DNA of 64,000 bases from Panopea generosa (lineage: Eukaryota > Mollusca > Bivalvia > Adapedonta > Hiatellidae): positions 48,270,807 through 48,334,806 of the forward strand of contig CM055895.1 of assembly GCA_029582155.1 (NCBI GenBank), in the 5' to 3' direction. Made by a program: the position numbers and the translations under genes. The notes under the pieces are model-generated. The model worked only from the letters and a program-made list of their open reading frames with translations, had not been told where the DNA came from and made no database searches. Below are positions 32,374 to 58,290 of the stretch, in pieces. Each line of letters opens with the position of its first letter. The first letter of the stretch is position 1.

Positions 32374-32483
32374 AAAAAGAAATAAGTATTGTATTATACT
32401 GGTTTGTATCTACTTTCATTAATTCCAATTATATAATAGTTTTAATATGTTTCTCATCTAATTTCACTTTGTTATAGAAGGCA

Positions 32484-32591: not shown

Positions 32592-32616
32592 ACCCGTTAT
32601 AGAAAATTAACCTGTA

Positions 32617-35600
32617 GGCATAGTGCCACCATTGCAAAAAGGAAGTGCTTCTGTGGGGTAGTCGCATAATGGCGGTTATAAATAATCCTCAATTCTTCTT
32701 CTTTAAAAATGCATTTTCCTTATTTTAATGCTCATTTTTTTATTTGAATGGCATTATTGATGTATTTTGAACATTTTGATAGCATTGTCATGTTTGAATT
32801 GTGAATTTAGAAAAAAAAAATGATGCTTGTAAATTTGGGTATGAATTCATGATTTCGGAAGTCTACTTTCACTTTGTCACCAGTGTACACACTGAGCAGA
32901 AAAAAAATCTCTTATATGACACATGACCCCTACTTTTCTCATCATATTTTGATAGTGCAGAGGTTGACAAACAGTAAAATTTAGGTTTCACTTTTTTCAT
33001 TTGGGACCCTCTATGAATGACAAGCCTTCAAACTTTTATTATTTACTATAGAATAAAGAACAAAAATCAATGGTGGGGTTACACCTATAAGAGAGACTTG
33101 AGTGAAATGGGGGTGATTTTCCAAAATGTTAATTGTAGGTAAAATTACCTCTTTTTTACACTCTCATAGTATTAAATGACAAATTGGAGACATTTGCTTC
33201 ATACAAAAAAAACATTGTGGCAAGTGTATGCCTCAAATAAAGCATATATGTGCATATTTACATTGAAATTTCATGAAAAATCACAAAATTTTGAAGATTT
33301 TTTATTTTGGATGATTTAAATGTGCAATTTTTAGCATGTACATTGTGTTGAATAATGTATTTTGGTAAGATAATGTCTTCAGTGTATCATGAGACTATTT
33401 TGGTGTAAAAATTTTAATGGAATTAGGTAAAAAAAAATTTTTTTTGGTAAAATTAGTCAAACACATCAAAATTGCATGTCGGTCAACATCTCGCGCCTGT
33501 ATATAATGATCATGTAAAAAGTGGTATTTTGACAAAAGTTTCAGTATTAAATGCCTGCAACTTGGCAGTATTTCTTCAAATTGGTAGTACTTAGTAAAAA
33601 TGAGGTAATTATGAAATTAAAAAAAAAGAGTTTCCTTATAGGCATAGTGCCACCATTGCAAAAAGGAAGTGCTTCCGTGGGGTAGTCGCATAATGGCGGT
33701 TATAAATAATCCTCAATTCTTCTTCTTTAAAAATGCATTTTCCTTATTTTAATGCTCATTTTTTTTTATTTGAATGGCATTATTGATGTATTTTGAACAT
33801 TTTGATAGCATTGTCATGTTTGAATTGTGAATTTAGAAAAAAAAAATGATGCTTGTAAATTTGGGTATGAATTCATGATTTCGGAAGTCTACTTTCACTT
33901 TGTCACCAGTGTACACACTGAGCAGAAAAAAAATCTCTTATATGACACATGACCCCTACTTTTCTCATCATATTTTGATAGTGCAGAGGTTGACAAACAG
34001 TAAAATGTAGGTTTCACTTTTTTCATTTGGGACCCTCTATGAATGACAAGCCTTCAAACTTTTATTATTTACTATAGAATAAAGAACAAAAATCAATGGT
34101 GGGGTTACACCTATAAGAGAGACTTGAGTGAAATGGGGGTGATTTTCCAAAATGTTAATTGTAGGTAAAATAACCTCTTTTTTACACTCTCATAGTATTA
34201 AATGACAAATTGGAGACATTTGCTTCATACAAAAAAAACATTGTGGCAAGTGTATGCCTCAAATAAAGCATATATGTGCATATTTACATTGAAATTTCAT
34301 GAAAAATCACAAAATGTTGAAGATTTTTTATTTTGGATGATTTAAATGTGCAATTTTTAGCATGTACATTGTATTGAATAATGTATTTTGGTAAGATAAT
34401 GTCTTCAGTGTATCACGAGACTATTTTGGTGTAAAAATTTTAATGGAATTAGGTAAAAAAAAAATTTTTTTGGTAAAATTAGTAAACACATCAAAATTGC
34501 ATGTCGGTCAACATCTCGCGCCTGTATATAATGATCATGTAAAAAGTGGTATTTTGACAAAAGTTTCAGTATTTAATGCCTGCAACTTGGCAGTATTTCT
34601 TCAAATTGGTAGTACTTAGTAAAAATGAGGTAATTATGAAATTAAAAAAAAAAGAGTTTCCTTATAAGAGAGACTTGAGTGAAATGGGGGTGATTTTCCA
34701 AAATGTTAATTGTAGGTAAAATTACCTCTTTTTTACACTCTCATAGTATTAAATGACAAATTGGAGACATTTGCTTCATAAAAAAAAACACATTTTGGCA
34801 AGTGTATGCCTCAAATAAAGCAAATATGTGCATATTTACATTGAAATTTCATGAAAAATCACAAAATTTTGAAGATTTTTTATTTTGGATGATTTAAATG
34901 TGCAATTTTTAGCATGTACATTGTATTGAATAATGTATTTTGGTAAGATAATGTCTTCAGTGTATCATGAGACTATTTTGGTGTAAAAATTTTAATGGAA
35001 TTAGGTAAAAAAAAAATTTTTTTGGTAAAATTAGTCAAACACATCAAAATTGTATGTCGGTCAACATCTCGCGCCTGTATATAATGATCATGTAAAAAAT
35101 GGTATTTTGACAAAAGTTTCAGTATTTAATGCCTGCAACTTGGCAGTATTTCTTCAAATTGGTAGTACTTAGTAAAAATGAGGTAATTATGAAATTAAAA
35201 AAAAAAGAGTTTCCTTATAAGAGAGACTTGAGTGAAATGGGGGTGATTTTCCAAAATGTTAATTGTAGGTAAAATTACCTCTTTTTTACACTCTCATAGT
35301 ATTAAATGACAAATTGGAGACATTTGCTTCATAAAAAAACACATTTTGGCAAGTGTATGCCTCAAATAAAGCAAATATGTGCATATTTACATCGAAATTT
35401 CATGAAAAATCACAAAATTTTGAAGATTTTTTATTTTGGATGATTTAAATGTGCAATTTTTAGCTTGTACATTGTATTGAATAATGTATTTTGGTAAGAT
35501 AATGTCTTCAGTGTATCATGAGACTATTTTGGTGTAAAAATTTTAATGGAATTAGGTAAAAAAAAAATTTTTTTTGGGTAAAATTAGTCAAACACATCAA

Positions 35601-36796
35601 AATTGCATGTCGGTCAACATCTCGCGCCTGTATATAATGATCATGTAAAAAGTGGTATTTTGACAAAAGTTTCAGTATTTAATGCCTGCAACTTGGCAGT
35701 ATTTCTTCAAATTGGTAGTACTTAGTAAAAATGAGGTAATTATGAAATTAAAAAAAAAAGAGTTTCCTTATAAGAGAGACTTGAGTGAAATGGGGGTGAT
35801 TTTCCAAAATGTTAATTGTAGGTAAAATTACCTCTTTTTTACACTCTCATAGTATTAAATGACAAATTGGAGACATTTGCTTCATAAAAAAAACACACAT
35901 TTTGGCAAGTGTATGCCTCAAATAAAGCAAATATGTGCATATTTACATTGAAATTTCATGAAAAATCACAAAATTTTGAAGATTTTTTATTTTGGATGAT
36001 TTAAATGTGCAATTTTTAGCATGTACATTGTGTTGAATAATGTATTTTGGTAAGATAATGTCTTCAGTGTATCATGAGACTATTTTGGTGTAAAAATTTT
36101 AATGGAATTAGGTAAAAAAAATTTTTTTTGGGTAAAATTAGTCAAACACATCAAAATTGCATGTCGGTCAACATCTCGCGCCTGTATATAATGATCATGT
36201 AAAAAGTGGTATTTTGACAAAAGTTTCAGTATTAAATGCCTGCAACTTGGCAGTATTTCTTCAAATTGGTAGTACTTAGTAAAAATGAGGTAATTATGAA
36301 ATTAAAAAAAAAAGAGTTTCCTTATAGGCATAGTGCCACCATTGCAAAAAGGAAGTGCTTCCGTGGGGTAGTCGCATAATGGCGGTTATAAATAATCCTC
36401 AATTCTTCTTCTTTAAAAATGCATTTTCCTTATTTTAATGCTCATTTTTTTATTTGAATGGCATTATTGATGTATTTTGAACATTTTGATAGCATTGTCA
36501 TGTTTGAATTGTGAATTTAGAAAAAAAAAATGATGCTTGTAAATTTGGGTATGAATTCATGATTTCGGAAGTCTACTTTCACTTTGTCACCAGTGTACAC
36601 ACTGAGCAGAAAAAAAAATCTCTTATATGACACATGACCCCTACTTTTCTCATCATATTTTGATAGTGCAGAGGTTGACAAACAGTAAAATGTAGGTTTC
36701 ACTTCTTTCATTTGGGACCCTCTATGAATGACAAGCCTTCAAACTTTTATTATTTACTATAGAATAAAGAACAAAATTCAATGGTGGGGTTACACC
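32617..36796 (+). mobile_element. composite array 1 of elements A and B: A-B-A-B-B-B-B-A
   Basis: Element A (about 470 bp, starts GGCATAGTGCCACCATTG, ends GGTGGGGTTACACC): 32617-33085, 33641-34111, 36327-36796. Element B (about 547-550 bp, starts AGAGAGACTTGAGTG, ends AAAGAGTTTCCT): 33090-33636, 34116-34662, 34667-35215, 35220-35768, 35773-36322. Every internal junction is a single TATA. The whole array is flanked by TGTA (32613-32616 and 36797-36800), a 4-bp target duplication. The ends of A are imperfect inverted repeats (13 of 18). All copies point the same way. No coding frame. Confidence 0.9.
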
Positions 36797-36800
36797 TGTA

Positions 36801-37130
36801 TTAGACCAACGATGCTGCCAGCAGTTGCATATATCGCACTGTAATGGATGCTGCCTCTTCGTAACATGACGCAAAGGTTATACAGGATTGTTCACTTTCT
36901 CCGAACCGGAAGTAGAGTGAACCAGTCTGTCGAGTTTGAAAAAGTGAAAGTAGACATTCCCGGGAATTCTCGAAAATTCCCGGTTACCATGTGGATCAGA
37001 AAGGAAGAGGATATTTATCAAGAAGGTTCCCCTGTCACTGCGCATGATTTTTTCATATTCGCAATATCTCTCCTGCGGATATGAAAAAACAAAACCTCCA
37101 ATTTTGGAGAGTATTGAACCTTCTTGACGT
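36801..37130. repeat. dispersed CCGGAAGTAG...TTCCCGG sequence, copy 1
   Basis: About 36895-36990 carries ACCGGAAGTAGAGTGAACCA, GTCGAGTTTGAAAAAGTGAA and TTCCCGGGAATTCTCGAAAA. The same string occurs at 59650-59765. An open frame of 78 codons crosses it but has no recognisable protein. Confidence 0.6.
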
Positions 37131-37379
37131 TTATCTGTTTTATATTACATTTTTCTGCATTGTGAAGGAAAAATGATATTGTTTTGACGAATATAAAATA
37201 TATTTTTCTACATTGTGAATGAGAAATAACATTTAGACATTGATTGGTAGGTGTTTTCGATCAGAGTTCTGTAAATATCATAATAATGTGACTTTAAAAT
37301 TTGGTTTTACCAGTGGGAGTTTGTTATTTTTAGGTTTTTATGAGTATAACAATGTAATCGATAACTTATGTACCTTCAT

Positions 37380-37450
37380 TACAAAAATGGTTACCAACCC
37401 CCCCCCCCCCCAGTCCCCCCCCACCCGCCCTCCCCCTTCCCTTACACACA
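37380..37450. repeat. C-rich low-complexity run
   Basis: CCCCCCCCCC runs broken by AGT, ACCCG and TT. Comparable homopolymer runs occur at 46157-46173 (G), 46640-46657 (GT then G), 48785-48802 (C) and 60121-60160 (C then A). Confidence 0.85.
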
Positions 37451-37746
37451 TACAAACATGTATATGGAACTGCCATTATAAGAGTTTAAAAGCAAAAACA
37501 TCAAAATAATACACCGCATTAAAATGCACCCCACCCACAAACAGATCTATAACAGTATACTGCAGTCTCAACAAACGTTTACTCTTTGAGACAAAATGAC
37601 AGTGATTGTTTGTATTTATACTTATTAAAGAGTGGTTTAAAATATTAAATATTGTTCTGTAACTTCTGTGTATCAATATTAAGTGTGTTTTTTATTGTAG
37701 AAATTGTAAATACAGAAAAGAGGTAATACTTTCTTAGCTTTACACA

Positions 37747-37853
37747 GGAAGTCTATCAGGGAGAAAGTCTTTGTAGTACAAGAAAGTACAAACTCCTCCA
37801 AGGAGTGAGATGTCAGTTCAAGTCTGACCTTGGACAAATTGATAGACTTCCAT
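37747..37853 (+). ncRNA. tRNA-like element closed by a 12-bp stem
   Basis: GGAAGTCTATCA and TGATAGACTTCC are perfect inverted repeats at the ends. Inside are a D-arm-like TAGTACAAGAAAGTACA, a hairpin ACTCCTCCAAGGAGT and a T-arm-like GTCAGTTCAAGTCTGAC. It looks like a tRNA-derived repeat or decayed tRNA, not a normal tRNA gene. The D-arm is close to that of the element at 38949-39017. Confidence 0.45.
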
Positions 37854-38948
37854 TTCATTTTTCATAATGATATATAATAAAGGCTTTCAATTGTGCAATG
37901 ATGTGGACTTTGGTTAAAATATTTGGTATGAAATATGGCTTATTTATACAAATAAGACAATCATTAAGCAAAGTTTAACTTATAAACTTTTTAACTTTTT
38001 AAACCCTATTTAGTTTCCATTCAGTAAGACAAATTGAAATGAAAATAAAGAATATTGAAATACTTGCATACAATCATTCAGTCTGTATGTCAACTATATA
38101 TATAGTGTGTTATTGTCAGTCACTTCAATTATTAATTATTGTATTCTATTTTTTTAATAATGTTAAACTTAAACCTAAAATAATAATGGTGTGTATGGCA
38201 TGCTATAAGTACAAGCATTTAGTTATTTAAGATTTGGAGATACTAATTAGTTTGAACTTTTGATATATGACACTGTCAAAGGTTCACGTACAGCAAGCCA
38301 AAAATAGAATTAGTAACATATTTTATGGTCATTTAGCGAAGAGAGTGGACATCTGATATATAGAAAAACATGCGTTATGTGTTAATGATGTGCAATGTTG
38401 AAACAATAGAAACTGCATTTCGTTTCTCTATGAAAATCAGTTGAATTTGGGTAGTGCTAAAAGTACCAGTTTGCATTTCATTGGCACCATGATGTTGCTT
38501 TGCTTTTAGCTTGTAGGACATTACATTTCATGGGATGCTTACTGTAACCTAGGTAGCCATAAAGATGTGCACAACTGTGCTTATTCAACAGGACTTGGAA
38601 CAAAGTCACTATTCAAACAATGACATTAAATTGGTAGCTAAATATTTCTGTTTTTTTAAATATAAAAACAAACATCATCATAGTTATTCTTTCATCTTAA
38701 ATAATTTGAAAATATATTGTAAATTATACAATTCTGAGTTTTCATTGAAAGATGAAAAACATTCTCTAGTCTAGTTCGGACTTCAGACATTAATCTAGCC
38801 TGTTTTTCATCACTGGATCAAACTCAAAATTATGCTACCATTCCTGAAATAAACACAAACTTATTTACTAATATAAGCATTTTTCACTATCCTCATTTCA
38901 TAAATTCAAAACTGATTTACAATACGTAGTATGAAGCCTCCAACAGGT
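37854..38948. other. no gene seen
   Basis: A+T-rich DNA with only short open frames lacking recognisable domains. Confidence 0.5.
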
Positions 38949-39017
38949 ATCCTTAGTTGGGATTGAACCAACATATTCCATCTTAAAGACAGATGTACTT
39001 CATTGTACTATAAGGAT
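38949..39017 (-). ncRNA. tRNA-like cloverleaf, copy 1
   Basis: 69 nt on the minus strand fold as acceptor ATCCTTA/TAAGGAT (7 pairs), D arm GTAC-AATGAA-GTAC, an anticodon arm with loop CTTTAAG, and T arm GTTGG-TTCAATC-CCAAC. The anticodon in this fold is UUA. A second copy of the same length lies at 49296-49364, with similar flanks (AGCCTCCAACAG). Likely a tRNA-derived dispersed repeat rather than a functional tRNA. Confidence 0.5.
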
Positions 39018-39239
39018 GCATTTTGAAGCTGCATTAAACTTACACTGTACATTAATTATGATAGTTCAAATTCCTGTTTTATTTTTAAGCCTTACAGTAA
39101 TTCAAGCTTTAGAAATGTTTGCTTTTAATTATCAATTTTGTAAAAATTAAATCGTCACCATTAAGCAAACTTAAATAAACCGACAATTGGAAAACTTTTT
39201 CAATAATTTTACACTCTTTTTACAGCGACACACATACAC

Positions 39240-39655
39240 ATACAGGTATGAAGAGGTACATAGGTAAGAGAAGTAAACTTACCTTGACACACATACACTC
39301 CTTGTACATAGGTATGAGGAGAGAGCACCTTACCCCAACACACATACACTCCTCATACATAGGTATGATGAGAGGGAGACTTACTTTGACACACATACAC
39401 TCATCATATATTGATATGAGGAGAGGGAAACTTACCTTGACACACATATATTCCTTGTACATAGGTATGAGGAGAGAGAAACTTACCTTGACACACATAC
39501 ACTCATATATGGGTTTGAGGAGAGACAATCTTACCTTGACACACATACACTTTCATACATTGGTATGAGGAGAGGGGATCTTACCCTGACACACATACAC
39601 TCTTATACATTGGTACGAGAAGAGGGAATCTTACCCCGACACACATAAACTCCTT
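39240..39655. repeat. 60-bp minisatellite (CTTACCTTGACACACATACA), left of the OTU gene
   Basis: Seven or so units of about 60 bp: GGTATGAGGAGAGGGAAACT, TACCTTGACACACATACACT, CCTTGTACATA. On the minus strand each unit contains CAAG|GTAAGT, a consensus 5' splice site. The unit is related to that of the array at 41690-43960. Open frames on both strands with a 20-residue period are artefacts. Confidence 0.9.
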
Positions 39656-39716
39656 TTTTCTTCTGCGTTGCCTTGAAACTGAATTGTTTTTCTATTTTCT
39701 TGTTTGATGAGATTTT

Positions 39717-41168
39717 TTACTTAGGCGTAAGTTTTTCTATTGTGTTTATTGTGCTATGAGTAGAATCTATACATATAACATCAGGGGCATAATGTTTAAA
39801 TTCTATAGCCTGTTCTTTGGTCATCAGAACCAACATGACATCTTCTTTCCTAAGTTGGATAGAATTAGATTGTGTGTGTTGCTGCTTATATAACAGCACA
39901 GGATTATTGGGGAGTGACTGCAGAATTTGAACTCTTAAATGCACTGATGTTGACTACTAATATTTTGTACCATGGATAAACGTGACCTAATCTGATTCCT
40001 TACAGGTTCTGGGATAGGAAGGAAACGAGTTTGATTTAAACCAGTTGCGTGAAAATGAGTCTGTATGTACTTCACAGAAACAACCCCAGAACTTTGCACT
40101 ATTACATTCATTCTTGATGGGCAGATCTTACCTATTTTTGCTGAGCCTTTACGTGCACGTTTATTACTTAAAACAGCATTCTTAATGTTATTACTATTTT
40201 CACTAAGTTTTGAACCACTACGATAACATATAAAGTTCTTGTATACTTTACCACAGACCTTTTTCGTAGCTTAGCACTTAAAACACACATTATTTGTACA
40301 TTCCTCATTGGATTTCCAACACATAAATTCCTGTTCAGTTTTAAAATTAAATGTTTGTATTGCCATTTCAGTTCCATGGATAGTCTTAAGGTGTTCAGCC
40401 ATTTTATCTACTGTCCTAAACTTTTCAGAACAAGATGGTACACTGCAAGGAATTGAAGTCAATGGTTTTTCCTTTTTGTCTAATGGACTAGAACGGCATT
40501 TACGACTATGTCTTTTCAATTTTTTCTTTGAAGAGAAATACATATTGCAATGACTACAAACAGTTCCAACAAGACAAGAATCTTTACCTAATGGTGGGTT
40601 TATGTAAACGTGATCAGTAAAGCTACTGCAGACTGCTACTATCAATGTTATCAAATGCTACTGATGGATCTAAAGTTATTACACTCTCGTTGAAAGAAGT
40701 ACTTTTTAAATCATCTACAACAGAAGTATTACCACAATTAAGTAATTCATTTGCTACATTCTGGTAAGGAAATGTGGATCCAGTGACATCATCAATTGCA
40801 ATATCAAAATGATCTCCTACCTTGGTTGTATACAAAATATGAATAGGAGCTGTTGATATGTAACTGTTTTGTTCATTAAAAGTGATAGTATTAACAACAT
40901 TATTATCATTAACACCTTGTGTAACAAAAATATTATGCCTGAAATGCCTACTTAAAGCGACTATACACTCAAATCCAGCATATACACCATCTAAAGATAA
41001 CCCGTTTAAATCGTCACTCATTGATCCTTGGATAAAGAAATCATTGAAATCATCTTCATGTTCCCTAATATAAGACACTGCAATTTGCCGTAACTCGGAA
41101 TAACTACTTTCATGACCAAATAATCCGAAACTAACAGCTCTAAATATACAATTGCCATCTCCATACAC
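39717..41168 (-). pseudogene. broken OTU-protease / C2H2 zinc finger / DDE transposase gene
   Basis: Minus-strand order: an OTU cysteine protease domain (40623-41168) with YGDGNCIFRAVSFGLFG, catalytic Asp/Cys at residues 4-7, and late GDHFDIAID with the His. After a one-base overlap/shift come two C2H2 fingers (40271-40654): CSHCNMYFSSKKKLKRHSRKC and CSVPSCSEKFRTVDKMAEHL. A basic region and THFHATGLNQTRFLPIPE follow in shifted frames (about 39950-40260). Last is VLMTKEQAIEFKHYAPDVIC then IDSTHST (39717-39944), the first strand of a MULE/ZSWIM-like DDE transposase, which ends right after. It is probably a transposon-encoded fusion, now inactive. The N-terminus before Met is not clear. Confidence 0.72.
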
Positions 41169-41689
41169 ATGCCGCCTTATTAAACCAAAATACGAATATA
41201 TTCATCCTGATTAAATACATTAAGAGGTACAAGAGCTCTACTACATATGTCTACACATTGCATGCTGAAACTGTTCATCCGAAACAAAAGTTGTTTTCTA
41301 CCATTACAATTAACTACAAAATAGTATGTTCACAGACACATGCTTGTATTTGTGAAAAAATATATCACCGAAGTTAGTATAGTATTTCACAAATCAATAT
41401 CAATTTTGATGTGCAGAAAATATTTAATTTCCAATAAATACTTAATAAATTATAAAAGTATTCTTTAGTAAAATATACTTCAATAACTATTAATTACTAT
41501 TTGAATATTACTAGTATTTGTATTATCTTTCTTTTGTTGTTATACTAGATCAAAGGCATCTGGAGCTATCTGGTTGTGTAAACCGGAACCATCAGTCTTG
41601 AAAGAGAAATACATTAATATTAATGATCAAAACATTTGGAGTACACTCAGTTCTTTCCTTTAATCAAAATCAATAGGTATCAGGTGAGT
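41169..41689. other. no gene seen
   Basis: A+T-rich spacer between the OTU domain and the minisatellite. An acceptor-like ATCAG just upstream of the OTU Met on the minus strand leads into an in-frame stop, so I found no upstream exon. Confidence 0.5.
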
Positions 41690-43960
41690 TTAACTTACTG
41701 TGACACACAAACACAGATGTCACGTGAGTGAAACTTAACTTGACAAACATACACTCTTCATAAACAGGTACCAGGTAAGTAAAACTTACCTTGAATCACA
41801 TACACAGGTGTCAGGTGAGTGAAACTTACCTGAACACACATACACAGTTGTCAGAGAGTGAAACTTATCTTGGTTCACATACACTCTTCATACACAGGTG
41901 TCAGGTGAGTGAAACTTACCTTGACACACATACACTCTTCATACACAGGTGTCAGGTTAGTAAAACTTACCTTGACACACATACACTCTTCATACACAGG
42001 TGTCAGGTTAGTAAAGCTTACTTTGACACACATAAACTCTTCATACACAGGTGTCAGGTAAGTAAAGCTTACCATGACACACATACACTCTTCATACACA
42101 GGTGTCAGGTTAGTAAAGCTTACCTTGACACACATACACAGTTGACAGGTGAGTGAAACTTACCTTGGCACACATACACTCTTCATACACAGGTGTCAGG
42201 TTAGTAAAACTTACCTTGACACACATATACTCTTCATACACAGGTGCCAGGTTAGTAAAAGTTACCTTGGCACACATACACTCTTCATACACAGGTGTCA
42301 GGTTAGAAAACTTACCTTGACATATATACACTCTTCATACACAGGTGTCAGGTGAGTGAAACTTATCTTGACATACATACATTCTTCAAAAACAGGTACC
42401 AGGTGAGAGAAACTTACCTTGGTACACATACACTCTTCATAAACAGGTACCAGGTGAGTGAAACTTACTGTGACACACATACACAGGTGTCAGGTTAGTA
42501 AAACTTATTTTGACACATATACACTCTTCATACACGGGTACCAGGTGAGTGAAACTTACTGTGACACACATACACAGGTGTCAGGTGAGTGAAACTTACT
42601 TTGACACACATACACTCTTCATAAAAAGGTACCAAGTGAGTGAAACTTACCTTGGTACACATACACTCTTCATAAACAGGTACCAGGTGAGTGAAACTTA
42701 CCTTGACACACATACACAGGTGTCAGGTTAGTAAAACTTATTTTGACACATATACACTCTTCATAAACAGGTACCAGGTGAGTGAAACTTACTGTGACAC
42801 ACATACACAGGTGTCAGGTTAGTAAAACTTATTTTGACACATATACACTCTTCATACACGGGTACCAGGTGAGTGAAACTTACTGTGACACACATACACA
42901 GGGGTCAGGTGAGTGAAACTTACCTTGACACACATACACTCTTCATAAACAGGTACCAGGTGAGTGAAACTTACTGTGACACACATACACAGGTGTCAGG
43001 TGAGTGAAACTTACCTTGACACACATACACTCTTCATTAACAGGTACCAGGTGAGTGAAACTTACTGTGACACACATACACAGGTGTCAGGTGAGTGAAA
43101 CTCACCTTGACACACATACACTCTTCATAAAAAGGTACCAGGTGAGTGAAACTTACCTTGGCACACATACACTCTTCATAAACAGGTACCAGGTGAGTGA
43201 ATCTTACTGTGACACACATACACTAGTGTCAGGTGAGTGAAACTTACCTTGACACATATACACTCTTCATACACGGGTACCAGGTGAGTGAAACTTACTG
43301 TGACACACATACACAGGTGTCAGGTGAGTGAAACTTACCTTGACACACATACACTCTTCATAAAAAGGTACCAGGTGAGTGAAACTTACCTTGGCACACA
43401 TACACTCTTCATAAACAGGTACCAGGTGAGTGAAACTTACTGTGACACACATACACAGGTGTCAGGTTAGTAAAACTTATTTTGACACATATACACTCTT
43501 CGTAAACAGGTACCAGGTGAGTGAAACTTACTGTGACACACATACACAGGTGTCAGGTTAGTAAAACTTATTTTGACACATATACACTCTTCATACACGG
43601 GTACCAGGTGAGTGAAACTTACTGTGACACACATACACAGGGGTCAGGTGAGTGAAACTTACCTTGACACACTTACACTCTTCATAAACAGGTACCAGGT
43701 GAGTGAAACTTACTGTGACACACATACACAGGTGTCAGGTGAGTGAAACTTACCTTGACACACATACACTCTTCATTAACAGGTACCAGGTGAGTGAAAC
43801 TTACTGTGACACACATACACAGGTGTCAGGTGAGTGAAACTTACCTTGACACACATACACTCTTCATACACGGGTACCAGGTGAGTGAAACTTACTGTGA
43901 CACACATACACAGGTGTCAGGTGAGTGAAACTTACCTTGACACACATACACTCTCTGTTA
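41690..43960. repeat. minisatellite with splice-donor motifs on both strands
   Basis: About forty units, mostly 57-60 bp, of CAGGTGTCAGGTGAGTGAAA, CTTACCTTGACACACATACA and CTCTTCATACA. A second subtype has GGTACCAGGTGAGTG and CTTACTGTGACACAC. Subtypes alternate, so there is a higher-order period of about 110 bp from 42430 on. Each unit carries CAG|GTGAGT on the + strand; the TTACCT subtype also carries CAAG|GTAAGT on the minus strand. Related to the array at 39240-39655. Confidence 0.93.
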
Positions 43961-44335: not shown

Positions 44336-44379
44336 CTGTAATATATGCAAATATTTGCTTCTTTAAACCTATATAAGGG

Positions 44380-46840: not shown

Positions 46841-47249
46841 ACAATTGTAGCCTAGTAAAATTAATAAGTTTGAACTAAACTCTAGTTTACATGTACATGA
46901 TTGACTTAAACAAAACATAAACTAAGATTATCACATGTACCTGCGTTTACATCCAACCACTAATTCCATGTAAAAGACATTATTATTACCGAAAGCATTA
47001 ACATTTCATGTTTACTGTCAATCTTGGATTTTAGCGGTAAATAGAAAAATCCGAGTATTCCGAATGTTACAAGTTGATCATGCGCATTGACAGGGAACTT
47101 TCTTGATATTTAGCCTCTAACGATCAGAAAACGCTTCACTATCTAGATTTGATCCCTCCTTCTGTGTCATGTGACGGTTTTGGCACCGCCTTGATGGACA
47201 TTCGGAGCTCCTCGGACACTGCTCTAACGTTTTGGCATCGGACCACCTC

Positions 47250-48556
47250 GCCAATTATCCTAATTGAGCTCGGAGATAAATACCAGCCACATTTGTACTA
47301 CTTTCGGTCCAGTGGACGAAAATAGATAACACTACAACAACAATGGCGGCGTACGGTAGGAACTGCAGTTTTTGTGGGATGATTAATGATAATCGCGACA
47401 ATCTGTTAATGGATGGAAGAAAGCATGAACAGCTGAAGGCGGTCATGATGTTTTATTTCGAGACCATCATACAACAGATTAATACAGTGCGCAGGAACTG
47501 ACAGAATAGACTACTCAATTTTTACAAGTTCTAGAGGTAAATTTTGTCGTAGACTAACCGGTTTTCGCGTAAACGTAAACAAGTTTCTAATTTCATGCAC
47601 TTTGTAAACATTCAATTATTTCAATAAAGTGCAATTGATAACATCACGGTTTAATGCAACTGTTTAAGTACTACATCAAATCCCAACTATACAGCTTCAG
47701 TAAATATAGAAATTATGATTGATAATGGAAAATATGATTATCCAAGTTGAAATTGATTAATTGAATGTTTAGTGTCATTTTTATGCCATCAACATCTAAC
47801 ATATGATTAGCGGTACTTGAATCTCATACTCAAAGAGAGGTAAGCCAGTAAGTGCCTATTTCACTAAGTACTGCGGTTGAATTTAATGCTCGCATCTTCA
47901 ATTTCCCCTTTATCGCACTTCTATAATTTGTGTAAAGTTTACTGCATAAGCTTAAATTCAGAGTACCTCGGCGATCTCTAATACAGTCGAAGTGTACACA
48001 CTGTAAATTGTGTATTGGTGTGTGTTATCGCATTGTTCAAAAGGTGTTATTGGACTCTACAATGCTTAATTGCTTTCAATTACAGTCGTTTCATAACCTG
48101 GTTGATTCGTACCCTAGCCCTGGTCGATGATAATTTTCCATACTCATCTATTAATTTTTTCAATTCTAGAACAGTTGATATCAGTATAAGATATGTTATA
48201 TCAGGTACATATCCCTTGTAAATTAGCGATGTTTGAAATATATTTGAGAGTATTAAAACCCTTCAATTTTATTACCAATAGTTTATAATTTCTAAATTTA
48301 CACTGTCGGCATTGGTTTTACTATTAGATATATATTTGTGAATTGGATTGCTTGTTATATTCATTAACCTTCCGGCAACAGTCTCTCTGATGATTCATAT
48401 AAGATGTTCAGGCTTCTCCACTATTCACCTAGCACTTACATTCTTTAACAGAATTTTGCAAAAGCTTACTTTCTTCTTAATCATGTTTTTTTCTTTGCAT
48501 ATATTTTCTCATTGTAAATTTTATTTAAAATGAAAAACAGTTATATGATGACTTAA
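47250..48556. repeat. inverted duplication, arm 2 (unfilled partner of 27481-30325)
   Basis: Matches the reverse complement of arm 1 from the common 5' flank (CCAATTATCCTAATT at about 47252) through the exon at 47343 to TTTTCTCATTG near 48510 and GATGACTT near 48552. It lacks the three insertions of arm 1, with empty sites near 48160, 48365 and 48420. Confidence 0.88.
47343..47501 (+). pseudogene. first exon of an unknown gene (arm 2 copy, truncated)
   Basis: Reads MAAYGRNCSFCGMINDNRDN, LLMDGRKHEQLKAVMMFYFE and TIIQQINTVRRN, then TGA at 47499-47501 where the arm 1 copy has CWNRPLNFYKF. A second stop (TAG) precedes the shared donor-like AG|GTAAAT. Without the 12-nt duplication seen in arm 1, this copy shows the likely original RNCSFCG. 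The stops suggest this copy is dead. Family not recognised. Confidence 0.55.
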
Positions 48557-49295
48557 CCTGATTAATAAGTTTTATTAGTGAAATATATTTCAATGAATGT
48601 CTTTCACACTTTCACAGAGCTTGAAAATGTGTTTAATTAAGTGTTCTTACCCTACTAGGCTAGTGCTTGCATTCCTTCCTGTGGAGAACCCTGACATTAT
48701 CTATCATTTTCTTTCGTCTCTCAAAGCTGATTCAAGTGGGAGAAATCATTGGTTACCTGCGGATATCAAATGCCATGAAAGATCACAATACCACCCCCCC
48801 CCCCCCCGCCCCACAACAAGAGGTCTCTCGACAAGATATATTAGTTAAATGACATCAACTGTAATGTGCAAAAAATGCATGTGTATGTTGCCAATTGCTC
48901 CGAACCGAGACAACAAATAGTTTCCAAAACAGTTACAAACCAGTTTGGACTCAACATCGGTCCTAAAATGTTAATGTAGAAATAAGAAAAAGTTAAACAT
49001 TAGAGAGGAAGCTGACGGAGGTTTGTTTACTAGTATAATTAATAAGTAATATTTTTAGTATAATTAATATAATACACTTGCATTCATTCTCTAGTTTGGG
49101 CTGTTTCTTTATATATTCAGCTAAAATTATAACACAATACATACTTATATACATAATGGTTCCTGGTGTTGAGTACATCTTTATCTTTATAGTGTAATGT
49201 AGCACACTTTTCTATATGAAAAGAACTCCAGGTTCAAGTCCTGGTGAAGACCTCAACACTTTCAATCATTGCATAGTAAGAAGCCTCCAACAGAT
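48557..49295. other. no gene seen
   Basis: A+T-rich DNA with a poly-C run near 48790; no recognisable frame. Confidence 0.5.
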
Positions 49296-49364
49296 ATCCG
49301 TAGTTGGAATTGAACCAACATCGTCCATCTTAAAGATGGATGTACTTCATTGTACTATAAGGAT
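49296..49364 (-). ncRNA. tRNA-like cloverleaf, copy 2
   Basis: 69 nt, same fold as 38949-39017: acceptor ATCCTTA/TACGGAT (one mismatch), D arm GTAC/GTAC, anticodon stem TCCAT/ATGGA with loop CTTTAAG, T arm GTTGG-TTCAATT-CCAAC. Anticodon UUA. Flanked like copy 1 by AGCCTCCAACAG. Confidence 0.5.
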
Positions 49365-49919
49365 GCATCTTGAAGGTACATTTAGGCACGGCACACTAAT
49401 TATAAATATAACCCTAACTAAGCATGACCCAAAAGTGATTGCAAAATCAGTACATTCCACTCCTATTGATTTGGGTATAAATAATGCAAGTCCCATTTTA
49501 TGAATAATTGCAGCATGCACAATAGTCATGTTACATTTGTATACATTCATATATTTAAAATGAAACTCTTGACTACTATTTTAAGATATTATTATATCAT
49601 GACTTACCAGTTGTATTCTGTGTAATTTAGTTTTGTTGCATGAATTTGTTCTATAATATGAACAAATTATCACAGTTTACTTAATTAATAAATTCACATT
49701 AAAGTATCTAAAAAAAGGTTATTGATAATGGATAGTTTTCACAAAAAAACATAGTAACAAACAAACAAACAAATATTTTATTAGACATAAAAACAGCACT
49801 TGGGTGTTTTATACTCATACCACAAATATCAATGTAAATATAAAACAAAAATTAATCATAATATTGTCAATATTCATCCAAATGAACCCAAAGTTGGCCC
49901 CTGCAGAATATCATTTTCC

Positions 49920-50100
49920 TATGATCCTCTCAAGATGATGATTGCTTATCTCTCACTGCTAAGGTTGTAGGTTAGAGTCATGATTGCTCCAAAAACTTCA
50001 TGCGAGAAAGTTGGCCAGTTACTTGCGGAAGTGTGGCCACCAAAAACTCTATATGTTATTATATAAACTGAATGTTTTGAAAATGGCATTAAAACCCATT
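49920..50100 (+). mobile_element. tRNA-derived SINE (class II tRNA-like head), copy 2
   Basis: Degenerate head (box B AGGTTAGAGTCA) followed by ATTGCTCCAAAAACTTCA, GAAAGTTGGCCAGTTACTTG and CGGAAG, the body shared with 44380-44570. Confidence 0.6.
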
Positions 50101-51955
50101 AAAAAAAGGTATATTTTCTGGAAATACAATCATTTTAAATATTGATAAATATTTGAACATGCGAAATAATTTTGTGAAATGTAGCCAAGGTGTTTGTCTA
50201 TCAAGCCATGGGTTGCAAGTTTGGTCTGCTGTTAAGCATTATGGCCTCTCAAAATCAACATCCAATACTGGATCTACCCAGGACATGAACTCAATATTAA
50301 TTCACAAAAGCTGTATGATCATTTGACAATCACAGCTGAAGCTGCACTTAAAAACTTTAATAATATAGAGACGTTTTTTTAAAAATTTACTTGCATTAAT
50401 TTTATCCATCCTGTGTCGCACTATAATGAGTAAGGCCTTAGGCCTTCTAAAGGACCCCTTATAAATTTCATGCATGGTTAATCATTCCCATGAGTAGGGG
50501 TTTGAAGTACAAATCAAGATGCAGGGGAGTAACGGGGCCCCTTAAATTGTATTACACAGGAATATTTGTGGAAAATAGAAAATAGTGTCACCATGTAATA
50601 ATTCTTATAATATTTTTATGAATAATATTTAATATTGTACCATATTGCTATATTAGAAATTTCTGTAATTAATACAGTTATTATGATTAGATAAATAATC
50701 ACTTGTATATAAACAATCCTCAGTTTTATCAAAGCGTACAAGTAAATAAGCCTATAGTCATGAGGTGTCACATATGTTGTACATCTTGGGCTGGAAGGAA
50801 ATAATAGTGCCAGAATGTTTGCACATTAGTTGTCACAAATTGGGAACATCCTGTATAGTGTAAATGACATGTTGTTTGAGTGATTGGTATAAGTAGTTAA
50901 TGAATGGAACTGACCAATGAAAGAAAGGATTCATTAGGTTGTTAGGGAGTTTAAAGACTATGAGAGAGATGATTGAGTGGTACTAAATATGGGAGGAGTC
51001 TGAGAAGAAAGAGTGTGAAATATGAAAGTATGTAGGTAGTAAGAAAAGGGAGGTTGAAAGGTTAAGTAAGGAAAAAGAGATTGAGGGGTTAGAGTAGGTT
51101 GAGAAGTGCAGGTTAAGATAGTTAGGAAATAAGGAGAAAGAAAGTTAAATAGGGAACATTTGAAGTGAAGAAGAATTAAGATGTTAATGTTAAAGTGAAC
51201 TGTGAGATATGAACTTGATGATTAAATGGAAATTAAAATGATGTAAATTGAATACAAGTGATATAGTAATAATTGAACATTCCCCTAATAGAGATAACGT
51301 TAATATATGGCCAGTTACATACGGCTGATTACAATATTCTCATTTTGTCATTCATTTCATTTGTGTAAAAAAAATGATCAATCTGAACCATTGTGTAATA
51401 AAAATTCAAAATAATTAGACTTGGTTCAATAAAGAAGATTATACTCCCATAAATGTCCAGGATGGACAAAAAAACGGCTTAAATGGGAAGGGTGATGGGC
51501 TTATGACATTATTCTGTTGTTTTTGTATTGAACTTTTTCTTTTATTAAAATGTTCAATTTTTAATTTTCATTATAATTATAGTTTGACATTTGAAAAAAA
51601 AAATCCAGTGGATTAAAAAAAAACAGAAGTTTTTTACAGGTTTTGTAGTTAAGCTGTTGTAAATATTTAAGTAGACTTTATTGTTTCCATCTATTTTTCC
51701 CATACAATTATTATTATTATGAAAAATGCAAATATTTATACTTTAAAGTATTGAAAGAATATGAGAAAAAACAAGCAGTTATAGCAGTTTCAGATGATGC
51801 TGATGTCTGTAAATAAGTAAATGTAACATATATTCTTTAAATCAAAACAGATAATACTGCATACACTTTCTTTGAGATAAAAATATAGTATACAAGTATG
51901 TAACATACAACATATATGGTTATGATGAATACTTCAATGGAGTTATCTTATTTAG
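50101..51955. other. no gene seen
   Basis: A+T-rich sequence; a purine-rich stretch at about 50930-51190 (GAGAGATGATTGAG, GGAAAAAGAGATTGAGGGG type). A possible old SINE body lies near 50180-50345. No frame recognised. Confidence 0.5.
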
Positions 51956-51967
51956 TTTTTTCAACGC

Positions 51968-52285
51968 CAACTGCGGCGTGGTCTAGTGGTAGAGCGTCCG
52001 CCTCGCATGCGGAAGGTCGTGGGTTCAATCCCCGGCCGGGTCATACCAAAGACTTTAAAAATGGTACTAGAAGCTTCCTCGCTTGACGCTCAGCATTTAG
52101 AGGAGAGTTCTAGGTCTGGTCGGCTCCGGTGTCAGTATAATGTGACTGGGTGGGGTATCATACCATGTGTCTGCGGCATGATACTCCAGTGTGACAGCGC
52201 TTACAATACTGTCTCAAGTAGACACCGTCGCGATATGACTGAAAAATTGTTGAAAGTGACGCTAAACACCATACAACAACAACAA
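51968..52285 (+). mobile_element. complete tRNA-Ala-derived SINE with 11-bp target-site duplication
   Basis: Head GCGGCGTGGTCTAGTGGTAG (box A TGGTCTAGTGG), anticodon arm CCGC-CTCGCAT-GCGG with anticodon CGC, and GGGTTCAATCCC (box B). The body includes GGCATGATACTCCA and CTGTCTCAAGTAGACAC. The tail is ATACAACAACAACA. Target duplication TTTTTCAACGC at 51957-51967 and 52286-52296. The body is shared with 28020-28310 and 19975-20215. Confidence 0.85.
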
Positions 52286-52299
52286 TTTTTCAACGCACT

Positions 52300-53198
52300 G
52301 AGTGTGGGTTTTTGTTTCACCAACACCTTCTTTGAATTACTGTCTTAACAGATTTTAGAATGGTGGTTTGCCTATTCTGTAACCAGTTGGACAATTGCAG
52401 AATCCAGTGCAAAAACACTGTTACCTAGAATATATTTCTGTAAACTTACGTTTCCTTGAAGTACTAGTGTGAATGACTGAGTTTGTGTTGGTGAGGCGTT
52501 GGCCTGCTCTCTGCTCATATGGTTTTTGACTGAATTTAAAGAGCAAACTTTCCTTACTAGTAAATGTTTTTTTTCTTAATGTTAGAACAAACTGAAACAC
52601 ATTGGTTTGTACAGTTATTGTATAACTTACCAGTATTTGATACATAATACATAAAAAAAAACTCAGAGTTAATAAATTTACTAAAGAACTTGGAAAGTTT
52701 GCCTCTTAATTTGCAAATATGAAAATGTTATATCAGAAATTTTGTACAGACTACATCATAATTTGTATTTTTTACATTTAATTTTGTTAAATGTTACAAT
52801 GAAATAAAAAATTAGCTTTATATTGTGAAACTGAAAAAAAATCCAATGGTTATTATAAGCCAGTACAGCATTGTTAAACTAAGATCTGCTATACTTTGTA
52901 TAACAACTTATTGAATATCCATATTTAGGTCAAAACAATGCCGTTATCACAATGAAATGGTATATGGCACACTTTATGATCTTGGTCATTGAAAATGATT
53001 CAATTACAGCTATATGTTTTGACTGATAGACCGGTTACCATTGTCTAATTATTAACAACTATGACAGGGAGACAATGTGACCTTTCTAAGCAAAAGAGTC
53101 AGAGCAGTACAAAAAGAATGGTGTTTTCTTTGAAATAGACGAAAATTCAACTTGATATTCAAGGTGAAGTGTTTGGTGTATAGTCCCAGAGACAGCAG
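52300..53198. other. no gene seen
   Basis: A+T-rich intergenic DNA; only short open frames. Confidence 0.5.
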
Positions 53199-53275
53199 GG
53201 CCTGATTAGCTCAGTCGTTAGCGTGTCTGACTATCAATCCAAGGATCATGTATGTGAGTGTTATGTTACAATGTC
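53199..53275 (+). mobile_element. SINE head, GCCCGGTTAGCTCAG family, copy 2
   Basis: GGGCCTGATTAGCTCAGTCG, TTAGCGTGTCTGACTATCAA, then a decayed box B. Matches the heads at 45760-45838 and 61050-61142. Confidence 0.55.
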
Positions 53276-54129
53276 ACCAGATTAAAAGAATCATATTTAA
53301 TTAAGTAAACAAGAAGACATATGCAACAACATTCTCTTTACTAAAAAAATATAATTTTTGGAAGAAATACAACTAAGGTCTCCAAAAGGTATCAGTGTAT
53401 CGTAACCTGTAAAAATAAAGGTCCGTGAACGAATGTGATATGTGTTTACAACTGTCACACGCTACTGTATGGGGCGGCAAAATCTGATGTTGGAAGAACT
53501 TGTGACCAAACCCCAGTTTTACATTACACATAGAAATAAAATAAGTTTAAATCATATACCAAATGTCGGACTGTCGATACAGTAGCGATAGATTTAAGTC
53601 CCAGGTGCGGTACTGGATTAGGTACTAAAATGTGCACCGACAACGACTGGTATTACCCATTACCTTATTTCACAGTCGATGTAAGATATTATTTTTTAAA
53701 CCTAGTTAATTGCTTATAGAGAGTGGATTTTCACATTTACAATGTAAATATTGTATTAAACATCTGCATCCCATTCAGGGTTTCGAAAGGAAATAATATA
53801 ATCTCTTATGGGCCAAAATGTTGTCATGTTATGGGGATTATATTTAACATCGATTTATAAAGGTTAAATTAAAAAGGTTACCCTCTCAATATGCACCTCT
53901 TACAACTTCCAAAAAAACTTGCAGGTTTGTTCAAACGCAATCTTTCATATATGTATGTCTGGGGGGTTTGAAAGTGTAGTTGGTTTTACCGCTAAAACGT
54001 TTAATGTACTCATTTTTACAGTGATGAAATTATAATAATTGTATTAAATCGATATTTAACATGAGTTTATATCAACCACACCACCCGATCCCTGGTATTC
54101 ACTAGTATTGCTTTAATTGAGTACTATGT

Positions 54130-55031
54130 TCACTCTTAATATCAAACAGTTCATTTTTTGAAAGTTTTATATATTCTTTTCTGAGAATATTTCAACGTGT
54201 TTTGAGTCCTTAAACATGAAATTATATGAAATAACCATAATGGCAATCAATCATCCTTTACAGATGTTTTAACGTAGCATAAATTGACTTCACTAACTTG
54301 TTCTGATATTCTTATATGGGAAACTGTACCATTATTTCAATGTTGTGCATACATACTTTTCTGAGAATATTTCAACGTGTTTTCAGTCGTTAAACATGAA
54401 ATAATATGAAATAACCATATGGCAATCAATCATCCTTTACAGATGTCTTAACGTAGTATAAATTGACTTCACTAACTTGTTCTGATATTTCTTATATGGG
54501 AAACTGTACCATTATTTCAATGTTGTGCATACATACTTTTCTGAGAATATTTCAACGTGTTTTCAGTCGTTAAACATGAAATAATATGAAATAACCATAT
54601 GGCAATCAATCATCCTTTACAGATGTCTTAACGTAGTATAAATTGACTTCACTAACTTGTTCTGATATTCTTATATGGGAAACTGTACCATTATTTCAAT
54701 GTTGCGTATACATTCTTTTCTGAGAATATTTCAATGTGTTTTGAGTCGTTAAACATGAAATGATATGAAATAACCATAATGGCAAACAATCATCCTTTAC
54801 AGATGTCTTAAGGTAGCATTAATTGACTTCATTAACTTGTTCTGATATTCTTATATGGTAAACTGTACCGTTATTTCAATGCTGTGTATGCATTCTTTTC
54901 TGAGAATATTTCAACGTGTTTTGAGTCGTTAAACATGAACTGATATGAAATAACCATAATGGCAATCGATCATCCTTTATAGATGTCTTAACGTAGCATT
55001 AATTGACTTCACTAACTTGTTCTGATATTCT
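54130..55031. repeat. 180-bp tandem repeat, about five copies, split by array 2
   Basis: Units of 179-180 bp start with CTTTTCTGAGAATATTTCAA (at about 54176, 54357, 54537, 54715 and 54895). They continue through TCATCCTTTACAGATGTC and GTTCTGATATTCTTATATGG. The last unit is interrupted at TTCTTATA by array 2 and resumes at 58106 (TATATGGGAAACTGTACC), continuing to about 58290. Confidence 0.9.
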
Positions 55032-55035
55032 TATA

Positions 55036-58000
55036 GGCATAGTGCCACCATTGCAAAAAGGAAGTGCTTCCGTGGGGTAGTCGCATAATGGCGGTTGTAA
55101 ATAATCCTCAATTCTTCTTCTTTAAAAATGCATTTTCCTATTTTTAATGCTCATTTTTTTATTTGAATGGCATTATTGATGTATTTTGAACATTTTGATA
55201 GCATTGTCATGTTTGAATTGTGAATTTAGAAAAAAAAAAATGATGCTTGGAAATTGGGGTATGAATTCATGATTTCGGAAGTCTACTTTCACTTTGTCAC
55301 CAGTGTACACACTGAGCAGAAAAAAAATCTCTTATATGACACATGACCCCTACTTTTCTCATCATATTTTGATAGTGCAGAGGTTGACAAACAGTAAAAT
55401 GTAGGTTTCACTTCTTTCATTTGGGACCCTCTATGAATGACAAGCCTTCAAACTTTTATTATTTACTATAGAATAAAGAACAAAAATCAATGGTGGGGTT
55501 ACACCTATAAGAGAGACTTGAGTGAAATGGGGGTGATTTTCCAAAATGTTAATTGTAGGTAAAATAACCTCTTTTCTACACTCTCATAGTATTAAATGAC
55601 AAATTGGAGACATTTGCTTCATAAAAAAACTCATTTTGGCAAGTGTATGCCTCAAATAAAGCATATATGTGCATATTTACATTGAAATTTCATGAAAAAT
55701 CACAAAATTTTGAAGATTTTTTATTTTGGATGATTTAAATGTGCAATTTTTAGCATGTACATTGTATTGAATAATGTATTTTGGTAAGATAATGTCTTCA
55801 GTGTATCATGAGACTGTTTTGGTGTAAAAATTTTAATGGAATTAGGTAAAAAAAAAAATTTATGGGTAAAATTAGTCGAACACATCAAAATTGCATGTCG
55901 GTCAACATCTCGCGCCTGTATATAATGATCATGTAAAAAGTGGTATTTTGACAAAAGTTTCAGTATTTAATGCCTGCAACTTGGCAGTATTACTTCAAAT
56001 TGGTAGTACTTAGCAAAAATGAGGTAATTATGAAATTAAAAAAAAAAGAGTTTCCTTATAAGAGAGACTTGAGTGAAATGTGGGTGATTTTCCAAAATGT
56101 TAATTGTAGGTAAAATAACCTCTTTTCTACACTCTCATAGTATTAAATGACAAATTGGAGACATTTGCTTCATAAAAAAACTCATTTTGGCAAGTGTATG
56201 CCTCAAATAAAGCATATATGTGCATATTTACATTGAAATTTCATGAAAAATCACAAAATTTTGAAGATTTTTTATTTTGGATGATTTAAATGTGCAATTT
56301 TTAGCATGTACATTGTATTGAATAATGTATTTTGGTAAGATAATGTCTTCAGTGTATCATGAGACTGTTTTGGTGTAAAAATTTTAATGGAATTAGGTAA
56401 AAAAAAAATTTATGGGTAAAATTAGTCGAACACATCAAAATTGCATGTCGGTCAACATCTCGCGCCTGTATATAATGATCATGTAAAAAGTGGTATTTTG
56501 ACAAAAGTTTCAGTATTTAATGCCTGCAACTTGGCAGTATTACTTCAAATTGGTAGTACTTAGCAAAAATGAGGTAATTATGAAATTAAAAAAAAAAGAG
56601 TTTCCTTATAGGCATAGTGCCACCATTGCCAAAAGGAAGTGCTTCCGTGGGGTAGTCGCATAATGGCGGTTGTAAATAATCCTCAATTCTTCTTCTTTAA
56701 AAATGCATTTTCCTATTTTTAATGCTCATTTTTTTATTTGAATGGCATTATTGATGTATTTTGAACATATTGATAGCATTGTCATGTTTGAATTGTGAAT
56801 TTAGAAAAAAAAAAATGATGCTTGGAAATTGGGGTATGAATTCATGATTTCGGAAATCTACTTTCACTTTGTCACCAGTGTACACACTGAGCAGAAAAAA
56901 AATCTCTTATATGACACATGACCCCTACTTTTCTCATCATATTTTGATAGTGCAGAGGTTGACAAACAGTAAAATGTAGGTTTCACTTCTTTCATTTGGG
57001 ACCCTCTATGAATGACAAGCCTTCAAACTTTTATTATTTACTATAGAATAAAGAACAAAAATCAATGGTGGGGTTACACCTATAAGAGAGACTTGAGTGA
57101 AATGGGGGTGATTTTCCAAAATGTTAATTGTAGGTAAAATAACCTCTTTTCTACACTCTCATAGTATTAAATGACAAATTGGAGACATTTGCTTCATAAA
57201 AAAACTCATTTTGGCAAGTGTATGCCTCAAATAAAGCATATATGTGCATATTTACATTGAAATTTCATGAAAAATCACAAAATTTTGAAGATTTTTTATT
57301 TTGGATGATTTAAATGTGCAATTTTTAGCATGTACATTGTATTGAATAATGTATTTTGGTAAGATAATGTCTTCAGTGTATCATGAGACTGTTTTGGTGT
57401 AAAAATTTTAATGGAATTAGGTAAAAAAAAAAATTTATGGGTAAAATTAGTCGAACACATCAAAATTGCATGTCGGTCAACATCTCGCGCCTGTATATAA
57501 TGATCATGTAAAAAGTGGTATTTTGACAAAAGTTTCAGTATTTAATGCCTGCAACTTGGCAGTATTACTTCAAATTGGTAGTACTTAGCAAAAATGAGGT
57601 AATTATGAAATTAAAAAAAAAAGAGTTTCCTTATAGGCATAGTGCCACCATTGCCAAAAGGAAGTGCTTCCGTGGGGTAGTCGCATAATGGCGGTTGTAA
57701 ATAATCCTCAATTCTTCTTCTTTAAAAATGCATTTTCCTATTTTTAATGCTCATTTTTTTATTTGAATGGCATTATTGATGTATTTTGAACATTTTGATA
57801 GCATTGTCATGTTTGAATTGTGAATTTAGAAAAAAAAAAATGATGCTTGGAAATTGGGGTATGAATTCATGATTTCGGAAGTCTACTTTCACTTTGTCAC
57901 CAGTGTACACACTGAGCAGAAAAAAAATCTCTTATATGACACATGACCCCTACTTTTCTCATCATATTTTGATAGTGCAGAGGTTGACAAACAGTAAAAT

Positions 58001-58105
58001 GTAGGTTTCACTTCTTTCATTTGGGACCCTCTATGAATGACAAGCCTTCAAACTTTTATTATTTACTATAGAATAAAGAACAAAAATCAATGGTGGGGTT
58101 ACACC
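55036..58105 (+). mobile_element. composite array 2 of elements A and B: A-B-B-A-B-A
   Basis: A: 55036-55505, 56611-57080, 57636-58105. B: 55510-56056, 56061-56606, 57085-57631. Every junction and both outer flanks are TATA (55032-55035 and 58106-58109). The uninterrupted 180-bp repeat shows TTCTTATATGGG at the target, so TATA is a 4-bp target duplication. Copies share variants absent from array 1, such as GCTTGGAAATTGGGG in A and TTATGGGTAAAATTAGTCG in B. Identical 77-codon minus-strand frames in B copies are not genes. Confidence 0.9.
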
Positions 58106-58290
58106 TATATGGGAAACTGTACCATTATTTCAATGTTGTGTATACATTCTTTTGTGAGAGTTAGTAACATGTTTTTGTCGTTAAACATGAAATGATATGA
58201 AATAACCATAATGGCAATCAATTATCCTTTACAGATGTCTTAGAGTAGCATAAATTGACTCCACTCACTTGATCTGAAATTGTTATATAT
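58106..58290. repeat. continuation of the 180-bp tandem repeat
   Basis: Completes the unit interrupted by array 2 (TGGGAAACTGTACC...) and one further decayed unit (GTTAAACATGAAATGATATG, TTATCCTTTACAGATGTCTT). Beyond about 58400 the similarity fades. Confidence 0.8.

Follow-up and report, generated by a model that had tools for sequence, protein, structure and literature searches.

Two arrays of A and B units

The DNA analyzed here is a 64,000-bp stretch of the genome of the bivalve Panopea generosa (contig CM055895.1, positions 48,270,807 to 48,334,806 of the forward strand; hereafter, the window), which contains two tandem arrays built of two types of units, denoted A and B. Array 1, with the unit order A-B-A-B-B-B-B-A, is bounded on the left by the outer target duplication TGTA (32613-32616) and consists of A unit 1 (32617-33085; 469 bp), B unit 2 (33090-33636), A unit 3 (33641-34111), B units 4-7 linked through single-TATA joints (34116-36322, that is, 34116-34662, 34667-35215, 35220-35768, and 35773-36322), and A unit 8 (36327-36796), with the right copy of TGTA at 36797-36800. 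Array 2, A-B-B-A-B-A, lies within a 180-bp tandem repeat, where the left outer duplication TATA (55032-55035) is followed by A unit 1 (55036-55505; 470 bp), B units 2 and 3 with a TATA joint (55510-56606, that is, 55510-56056 and 56061-56606), A unit 4 (56611-57080), B unit 5 (57085-57631), which is identical to B unit 2, A unit 6 (57636-58105), and the right copy of TATA (58106-58109).

All 14 units are on the plus strand, the 6 A units being 469-471 bp long and the 8 B units 546-550 bp long. Each of the 12 internal joints consists of a single TATA, and the AB, BA, and BB types are represented by 4 joints each, with no AA joint in the window. The order, strand, and coordinates of the units, the joints, and the outer duplications all agree with the original prediction, which was made from the sequence of this window. 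The same is true of the target of array 2, expected to be recognizable from the 180-bp repeat: the joined flanks of the array match three uninterrupted copies of the repeat at 77, 77, and 75 of 80 bases. No further full A or B unit was found in the rest of the window, and no open reading frame of at least 110 aa is listed within the arrays.

The copies are more alike within than between the arrays, as had been proposed. The identity of A units is 99.1-99.8% within arrays and 97.7-98.7% between them; B units are 97.1-99.1% identical to each other in array 1 and 99.8-100% in array 2, compared with 96.0-97.8% across the two arrays. In unrooted trees, the split between the two arrays received 100% ultrafast bootstrap support for A as well as for B. 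Under random unit order, the probability of A at all ends combined with the lack of A-A joints is 0.007, and that of A at the ends alone is 0.021. The uniform orientation had been taken as 14 of 14 observations in favor of tandem growth; this overcounts, since units that arose by recombination or were copied from a concatemer do not amount to 14 independent trials. A candidate interpretation of unit 1B2 as a mosaic of 1B4 and 1B7 was rejected (chimera test not significant, permutation value 0.74), and the target context common to the BB joint and the two array targets is weak (0.059 over ten columns and 0.11 over twenty).

A genome-wide family inserted as A...A blocks

We searched the genome (1.474 Gb in 39 contigs, among which the window is C2:48270807-48334806) with an 18-base pattern for the A 5' end and a 20-base pattern for the B start, each with at most one mismatch. 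The A 5' end produced 2,880 + 2,858 = 5,738 matches (control, 1 + 1) and the B start 701 + 903 = 1,604 (control, 0), whereas the joint of the A end, four arbitrary bases, and the B start in the same direction was found 551 + 642 = 1,193 times across the whole genome (control, 0); among 100 such joints listed, the four bases were TATA in 99 and TGTA in 1. Both arrays are insertions of a transposon family with thousands of pieces in the genome. There were no matches in a separate collection of genome contigs; in viral contigs, the exact 18-mer of the A 5' end had 2 matches, in unrelated sequence, and three other patterns had none. The two B units of array 2 that are identical over 547 bp might raise the suspicion of an assembly artefact, which is extremely improbable given the 0.9-2.9% divergence among the B units of array 1 and the 1,193 occurrences of the A-B joint.

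In total, 96 loci were parsed (L003-L099 without L079). These included 60 best matches from the A and B searches, some of them overlapping and, because of the way they were chosen, biased toward window-like copies; 16 loci on C1 that were the first A positions listed, mostly apparent singletons; and 20 loci on C1 picked from isolated AB joints. The set yielded 32 clean A-B-A copies and 20 solo A; the 44 excluded loci were longer arrays, truncated, matched on both strands (L010, L045, and L071), or reached the end of the stretch.

Both A and B had been described as elements with terminal inverted repeats (TIRs), which is valid for A only. The ends of A, GGCATAGTGCCACCATTG vs GGTGTAACCCCACCATTG, are identical in all six A units of the window and yield 13 of 18 end-anchored matches (tested on one copy from array 2; a fraction of 0.00022 of 100,000 random window stretches were as good), whereas the ends of B yield 5 of 18 matches, with 57% of random stretches as good, so that B has no TIR. 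Accordingly, A alone resembles a miniature inverted-repeat transposable element (MITE), being short and non-coding, with a TIR and a fixed duplication; B lacks both the TIR and a duplication of its own.

In 27 of the 32 A-B-A copies, the two A units bound a block with equal 4-bp outer flanks, the configuration of a macrotransposon or composite element. These flanks represent ten different sequences (TAAA in 6 copies, TGTA in 5, TATA in 5, TTAA in 4, TACA in 2, and five singles). The remaining five copies have the 5-bp duplications TTATA, TTCAA, and TTGAA, the 6-bp duplication TATAAA, and TTGA behind an extra TATAA. Solo A is flanked by equal 4-bp sequences in 19 of 20 cases and by the 5-bp TACAA in the other one; these are either insertion marks of its own or the leftover of recombination within an A-B-A copy. 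Altogether, the duplication is 4 bp long in 46 of these 52 copies, 5-6 bp in 5, and irregular in 1, and the 46 exact 4-bp duplications start with T in 45 cases and end with A in 42. TTAA, the duplication typical of piggyBac-type elements, accounts for 4 of 27 A-B-A copies and 2 of 19 solo A. Helitrons, according to a review (PMC9659126), insert without target duplication, and duplications are present here. The inner joints of the A-B-A copies are TATA in 62 of 64 cases, TACA in 1, and TCCTTATA in 1. Since the outer duplications vary from copy to copy while the inner joints stay TATA, A...A inserts as one block, with a variable interior, as the original prediction had it.

Were A and B separate elements that entered a shared TATA duplication one after another, a mode of tandem insertion that is described in a review (PMC12628747), B should also occur on its own with target duplications, a situation that had been named as grounds for abandoning the block model. 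Among the 70 exact B starts listed on C1, there is no free-standing B, 63 of the 70 being judged by the 5' neighbor alone: 49 follow an exact A end, 14 follow another B (by spacing), and 7 do not fall in either category. For the latter, 61-71 bases were read on each side; the 5' side is a diverged A in 3 cases, B in 1, and other DNA in 3, and the 3' side is A sequence in all 7. One-by-one insertion is highly improbable considering also that B has no TIR and that the inner joints are TATA regardless of the outer duplication.

Several arrangements outside the window differ from those within it. A-A joints occur at L030, L007, and L078; at L030 (C11:43888017-43891489), only A units follow each other in tandem, and all 8 joints seen read TATAA. 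Two B units, at L105 (C1:20673622-20673682) and L107 (C1:21936588-21936648), have an identical 61-base non-A sequence on the 5' side, possibly a third unit type. A region of about 35 kb (C3:41156517-41191787), read in parts, is rich in B units on one strand, many of them separated by A.

Coding relatives with direct A' ends

Examination of the list of A 5' ends revealed three A spaced 3.85 kb on C1. This locus, L079, has on the minus strand the structure TCAA-A'-TATA-X-TATA-A'-TATA-X-TATA-A'-TCAA, where A' is about 85% identical to A. One frame of X matches the Mutator-like transposase profile PF20700 (E-value 5.6e-35), and another matches the His-Me-finger endonuclease profiles PF05551 (8.2e-12) and PF13392 (8.2e-6). 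Two further X pieces of the four scanned produced no profile match, and a weak EcKL match among the four was under the cut-off; no reverse transcriptase was detected in the four frames. A search of PDB sequences gave weak matches to I-PpoI (best E-value, 0.021) and no match for the transposase piece. The L079 frames are interrupted by stops and frame changes. At positions 35-547, B can be aligned to the 3'-terminal 514 bases of X (62.7% identity; E-value 3e-41), indicating that B is a remnant of an X-like coding interior.

A search of the genome with the transposase protein produced 141 matches. Besides L079, there are seven close copies (93-96% identity over 272 residues); their open frames measure 479-672 aa, one of them containing an internal stop, and three are 672 aa long. 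Two of these three loci have direct A' ends at the expected distance (the outer 132-161 bases of A' were read), the duplications being TAAA and TTTA and the total lengths 4,323 and 4,320 bp, so that three loci, including L079, combine direct A' ends with a 4-bp duplication. The superfamily, which had been left open, can be narrowed because these coding relatives carry a PF20700 transposase. The domain is that of the Mutator superfamily, whereas the duplications are not: Mutator elements duplicate 8-11 bp of the target, and here the duplications are mostly 4 bp long.

These findings bear on the possibility that the family is a miniature long terminal repeat (LTR) retrotransposon (TRIM), in which A would be the LTR, occurring also solo and in tandem, and B the internal region. 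Direct repeats, a fixed 4-bp duplication, solo A, tandem copies, and alike ends would all fit this scheme, and LTR tandems, in which direct repeats alternate with interiors and the repeat comes first and last, are reported to be common in plants (PMC11899658). In contrast, here the ends are GG...CC with a TIR (13 of 18), X matches a DDE-type transposase family and none of the four X pieces scanned encodes a reverse transcriptase, and there are B-B runs without A. LTRs as a rule begin with TG and end with CA. An LTR origin of A is, in our assessment, hardly credible.

Distant transposases in regular tandem groups

The more distant PF20700 copies (31-34% identity) also form same-strand, head-to-tail groups of 2-6 with regular spacing: C13 has a group of five, spaced 4,168-4,169 bp, and a group of three, spaced about 6.7 kb; C1 has six copies with a spacing of about 5,075 bp; and pairs occur on C16, C15, C12, and C11. 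In view of this regular spacing, transposons of this lineage may commonly expand in tandem. In the first C13 array, of which 1,301 bases were read, we identified a 458-bp repeat, A'', the first 17 bases of which (GGTCAGCTACCACCATT) recur exactly, in inverse orientation, at its end. A'' and A share the motif GG-N7-CCACCATT. The flanks of A'', TTTA and TAAA, are inverted rather than direct, and on the strength of this one array, the inner TATA of A-B-A is more likely to be part of inverted ends than a fossil duplication.

Origin of the two A ends

Among the 32 A-B-A copies, the mean distance between the two A units of the same copy is 0.88% (range, 0-4.08%) compared to 1.59% between the 5' A and the 3' A of different copies. 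Six of the 32 pairs are identical, and none of 20,000 permutations gave a value as low. The mean distances among 5' A units (1.71%) and among 3' A units (1.47%) reveal no 5' or 3' lineages. The distance matrices of the 5' and 3' A units correlate at 0.67 (0 of 5,000 permutations), and those of A and B at 0.33 and 0.29 (109 and 154 of 5,000 permutations, respectively). Cut-and-paste movement of the block alone would give rise to separate 5' and 3' lineages of A, so block-only movement does not fit; the greater likeness within copies implies that A was probably doubled at or soon after the birth of each copy. Most simply, this likeness would mean that a single A is the source of the two ends of a new copy.

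Homologous capture, whereby an A-B circle recombines into a resident solo A to yield A-B-A with the old duplication, would produce terminal A units and a single orientation without a transposase, and solo A is common. It predicts, however, that the two A units differ as much as those of different copies, whereas the observed difference is about half of that, with the 6 identical pairs, and the coding form shows the same layout. We consider this route very unlikely.

Plain cut-and-paste macrotransposition deserves more attention. According to this scenario, A entered a tandem B repeat, unequal exchange multiplied A, and two direct A units then moved the block between them, with the inner TATA being the fossil duplication of the first A and the likeness of the A units coming from gene conversion or from excision out of homogenized arrays. 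The single orientation, the terminal A on both sides, and TGTA outside but TATA inside are all accounted for; maize offers documented cases of macrotransposition by direct elements (PMC9910405, PMC4270019); and long arrays capable of homogenizing A units exist in this genome. What lowers this scenario is that B is a remnant of X rather than a free satellite, that the A pair distances show no separate 5' and 3' lineages, and that the A'' flanks, in the one array read, are inverted. We regard it as unlikely, if by no means negligible.

In our view, the arrays are probably copies of a non-autonomous DNA transposon family of the form A-(interior-A)n, with a PF20700 relative inserting the A...A blocks. 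A, the approximately 470-bp repeat with the 18-bp imperfect TIR, stands at either end of the mobile unit in direct orientation and is also found alone, and B is a shrunken remnant of the 3' part of the coding interior X. The PF20700 transposase of A'-X-A' (about 4.3 kb) presumably acts on the A ends and presumably inserts the whole block with the 4-bp duplication. A single A could become both ends of a new copy in either of two ways: (A-B)n-A might be cut from a circle-derived concatemer, or an A-B circle might insert replicatively, in a cointegrate-like fashion. Later unequal exchange would alter the array length.

Several observations weigh against this model. The claim that arrays always start and end with A holds in the window and fails in the genome, where L048 (A-B) ends in B and, on C1, 3 of the 70 B starts are preceded by other DNA; L010 has an opposite-strand A beside an array. 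The partner in the same copy is the nearest neighbor for only 12 of the 32 5' A units, and the within-copy distance reaches 4.08%, so that the within-copy signal is strong without being absolute; moreover, gene conversion, or excision from homogenized arrays, would likewise make the two A units alike. The PF20700 protein is tied to the A ends solely by its position. Finally, the identity of about 85% between A' and A contrasts with only 63% between X and B, which indicates that A and the interior have not simply diverged together.

Comparison with known systems

DNA transposons usually consist of one inverted-repeat pair around a transposase gene. A layout with the same repeat in the same direction at both ends is unusual for this class, and here the common form has long direct repeat ends, each itself TIR-bounded and occurring alone, with the transposase of the coding relative sitting between the direct repeats. 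A similar arrangement is found in bacterial IS26 translocatable units and Tn3-type cointegrates, in which copies of a single element, all in direct orientation, bound circular units and link them into tandems of uniform orientation. The host here is eukaryotic and the transposase family is different, and only the within-copy likeness of A hints at replicative insertion. By analogy, it is a tentative possibility that the PF20700 lineage moves like an IS26/Tn3 cointegrate, such that a circle with one A and one interior inserts replicatively and A turns into the two direct ends of the new copy; the (A-interior)n-A arrays would then be the normal product of transposition rather than an accident. 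Alike ends of a copy are predicted by such a doubling step and not by a plain cut-and-paste block, unless conversion evens the ends. The doubling step in eukaryotic transposition thereby becomes testable, and the scheme would offer a simple route from a transposon to satellite-like arrays.

The original prediction that no described family behaves like this has to be amended: tandem arrays of full-length CMITE elements and the composite CMITE-IN have been published for Acropora corals, the authors suggesting replication slippage for the arrays (PMC2872659). As in the present case, short TIR elements occur in tandem and a composite is built from them. As described there, CMITE differs from A in being about 100 bp long, with TTAA duplications and piggyBac-like ends, and in CMITE-IN, the MITE is enclosed by 23-bp direct repeats instead of forming the two ends, with no transposase between two MITEs. 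In the Ac/Ds macrotransposons and composite insertions of maize, two linked elements use their outer ends to move the whole intervening stretch, as A...A does; those, however, are described as occasional products (PMC9910405, PMC4270019; macrotransposons are described also in PMC1562414), whereas A...A is the common form here and the transposase gene of the coding relative lies between the A units. PF20700 Mutator-like elements share the transposase domain with the coding relative but not the 4-bp (in some cases, 5-6-bp) duplications, the long direct repeated ends, or the added His-Me-finger endonuclease frame. MITE-derived satellites are described in reviews (PMC9659126, PMC6947457), tandem MITE insertions have been reported at cod inversions (PMC12368964), and an overview of Repbase is available (PMC4455052).

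Other features of the window

An Rfam scan of the window produced two tRNA matches, both outside the arrays. The tRNA-like sequences, which have a stop anticodon, are located on the minus strand, at 38946-39017 and 49295-49364, and are perhaps the heads of tRNA-derived short interspersed nuclear elements. Segments 2086-5125 and 10276-14385 contain a non-LTR-like reverse transcriptase frame (RVT_1) together with fragments of LTR type that are broken and match RNase H and the H2C2 integrase zinc finger, and at 40271-41201, on the minus strand, adjacent frames match an OTU-like cysteine protease and, just under the cut-off, a C2H2 zinc finger. A hairpin-like repeat at 27650-27951 has 113-bp inverted arms that are 92% complementary and 76 bp apart. 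Directly to the left of array 1, at 32471-32604, there is a foldback element with inverted arms of about 108 bp (74% self-match); the sequence GTTATAGAA on either side of it is a likely 9-bp target duplication.

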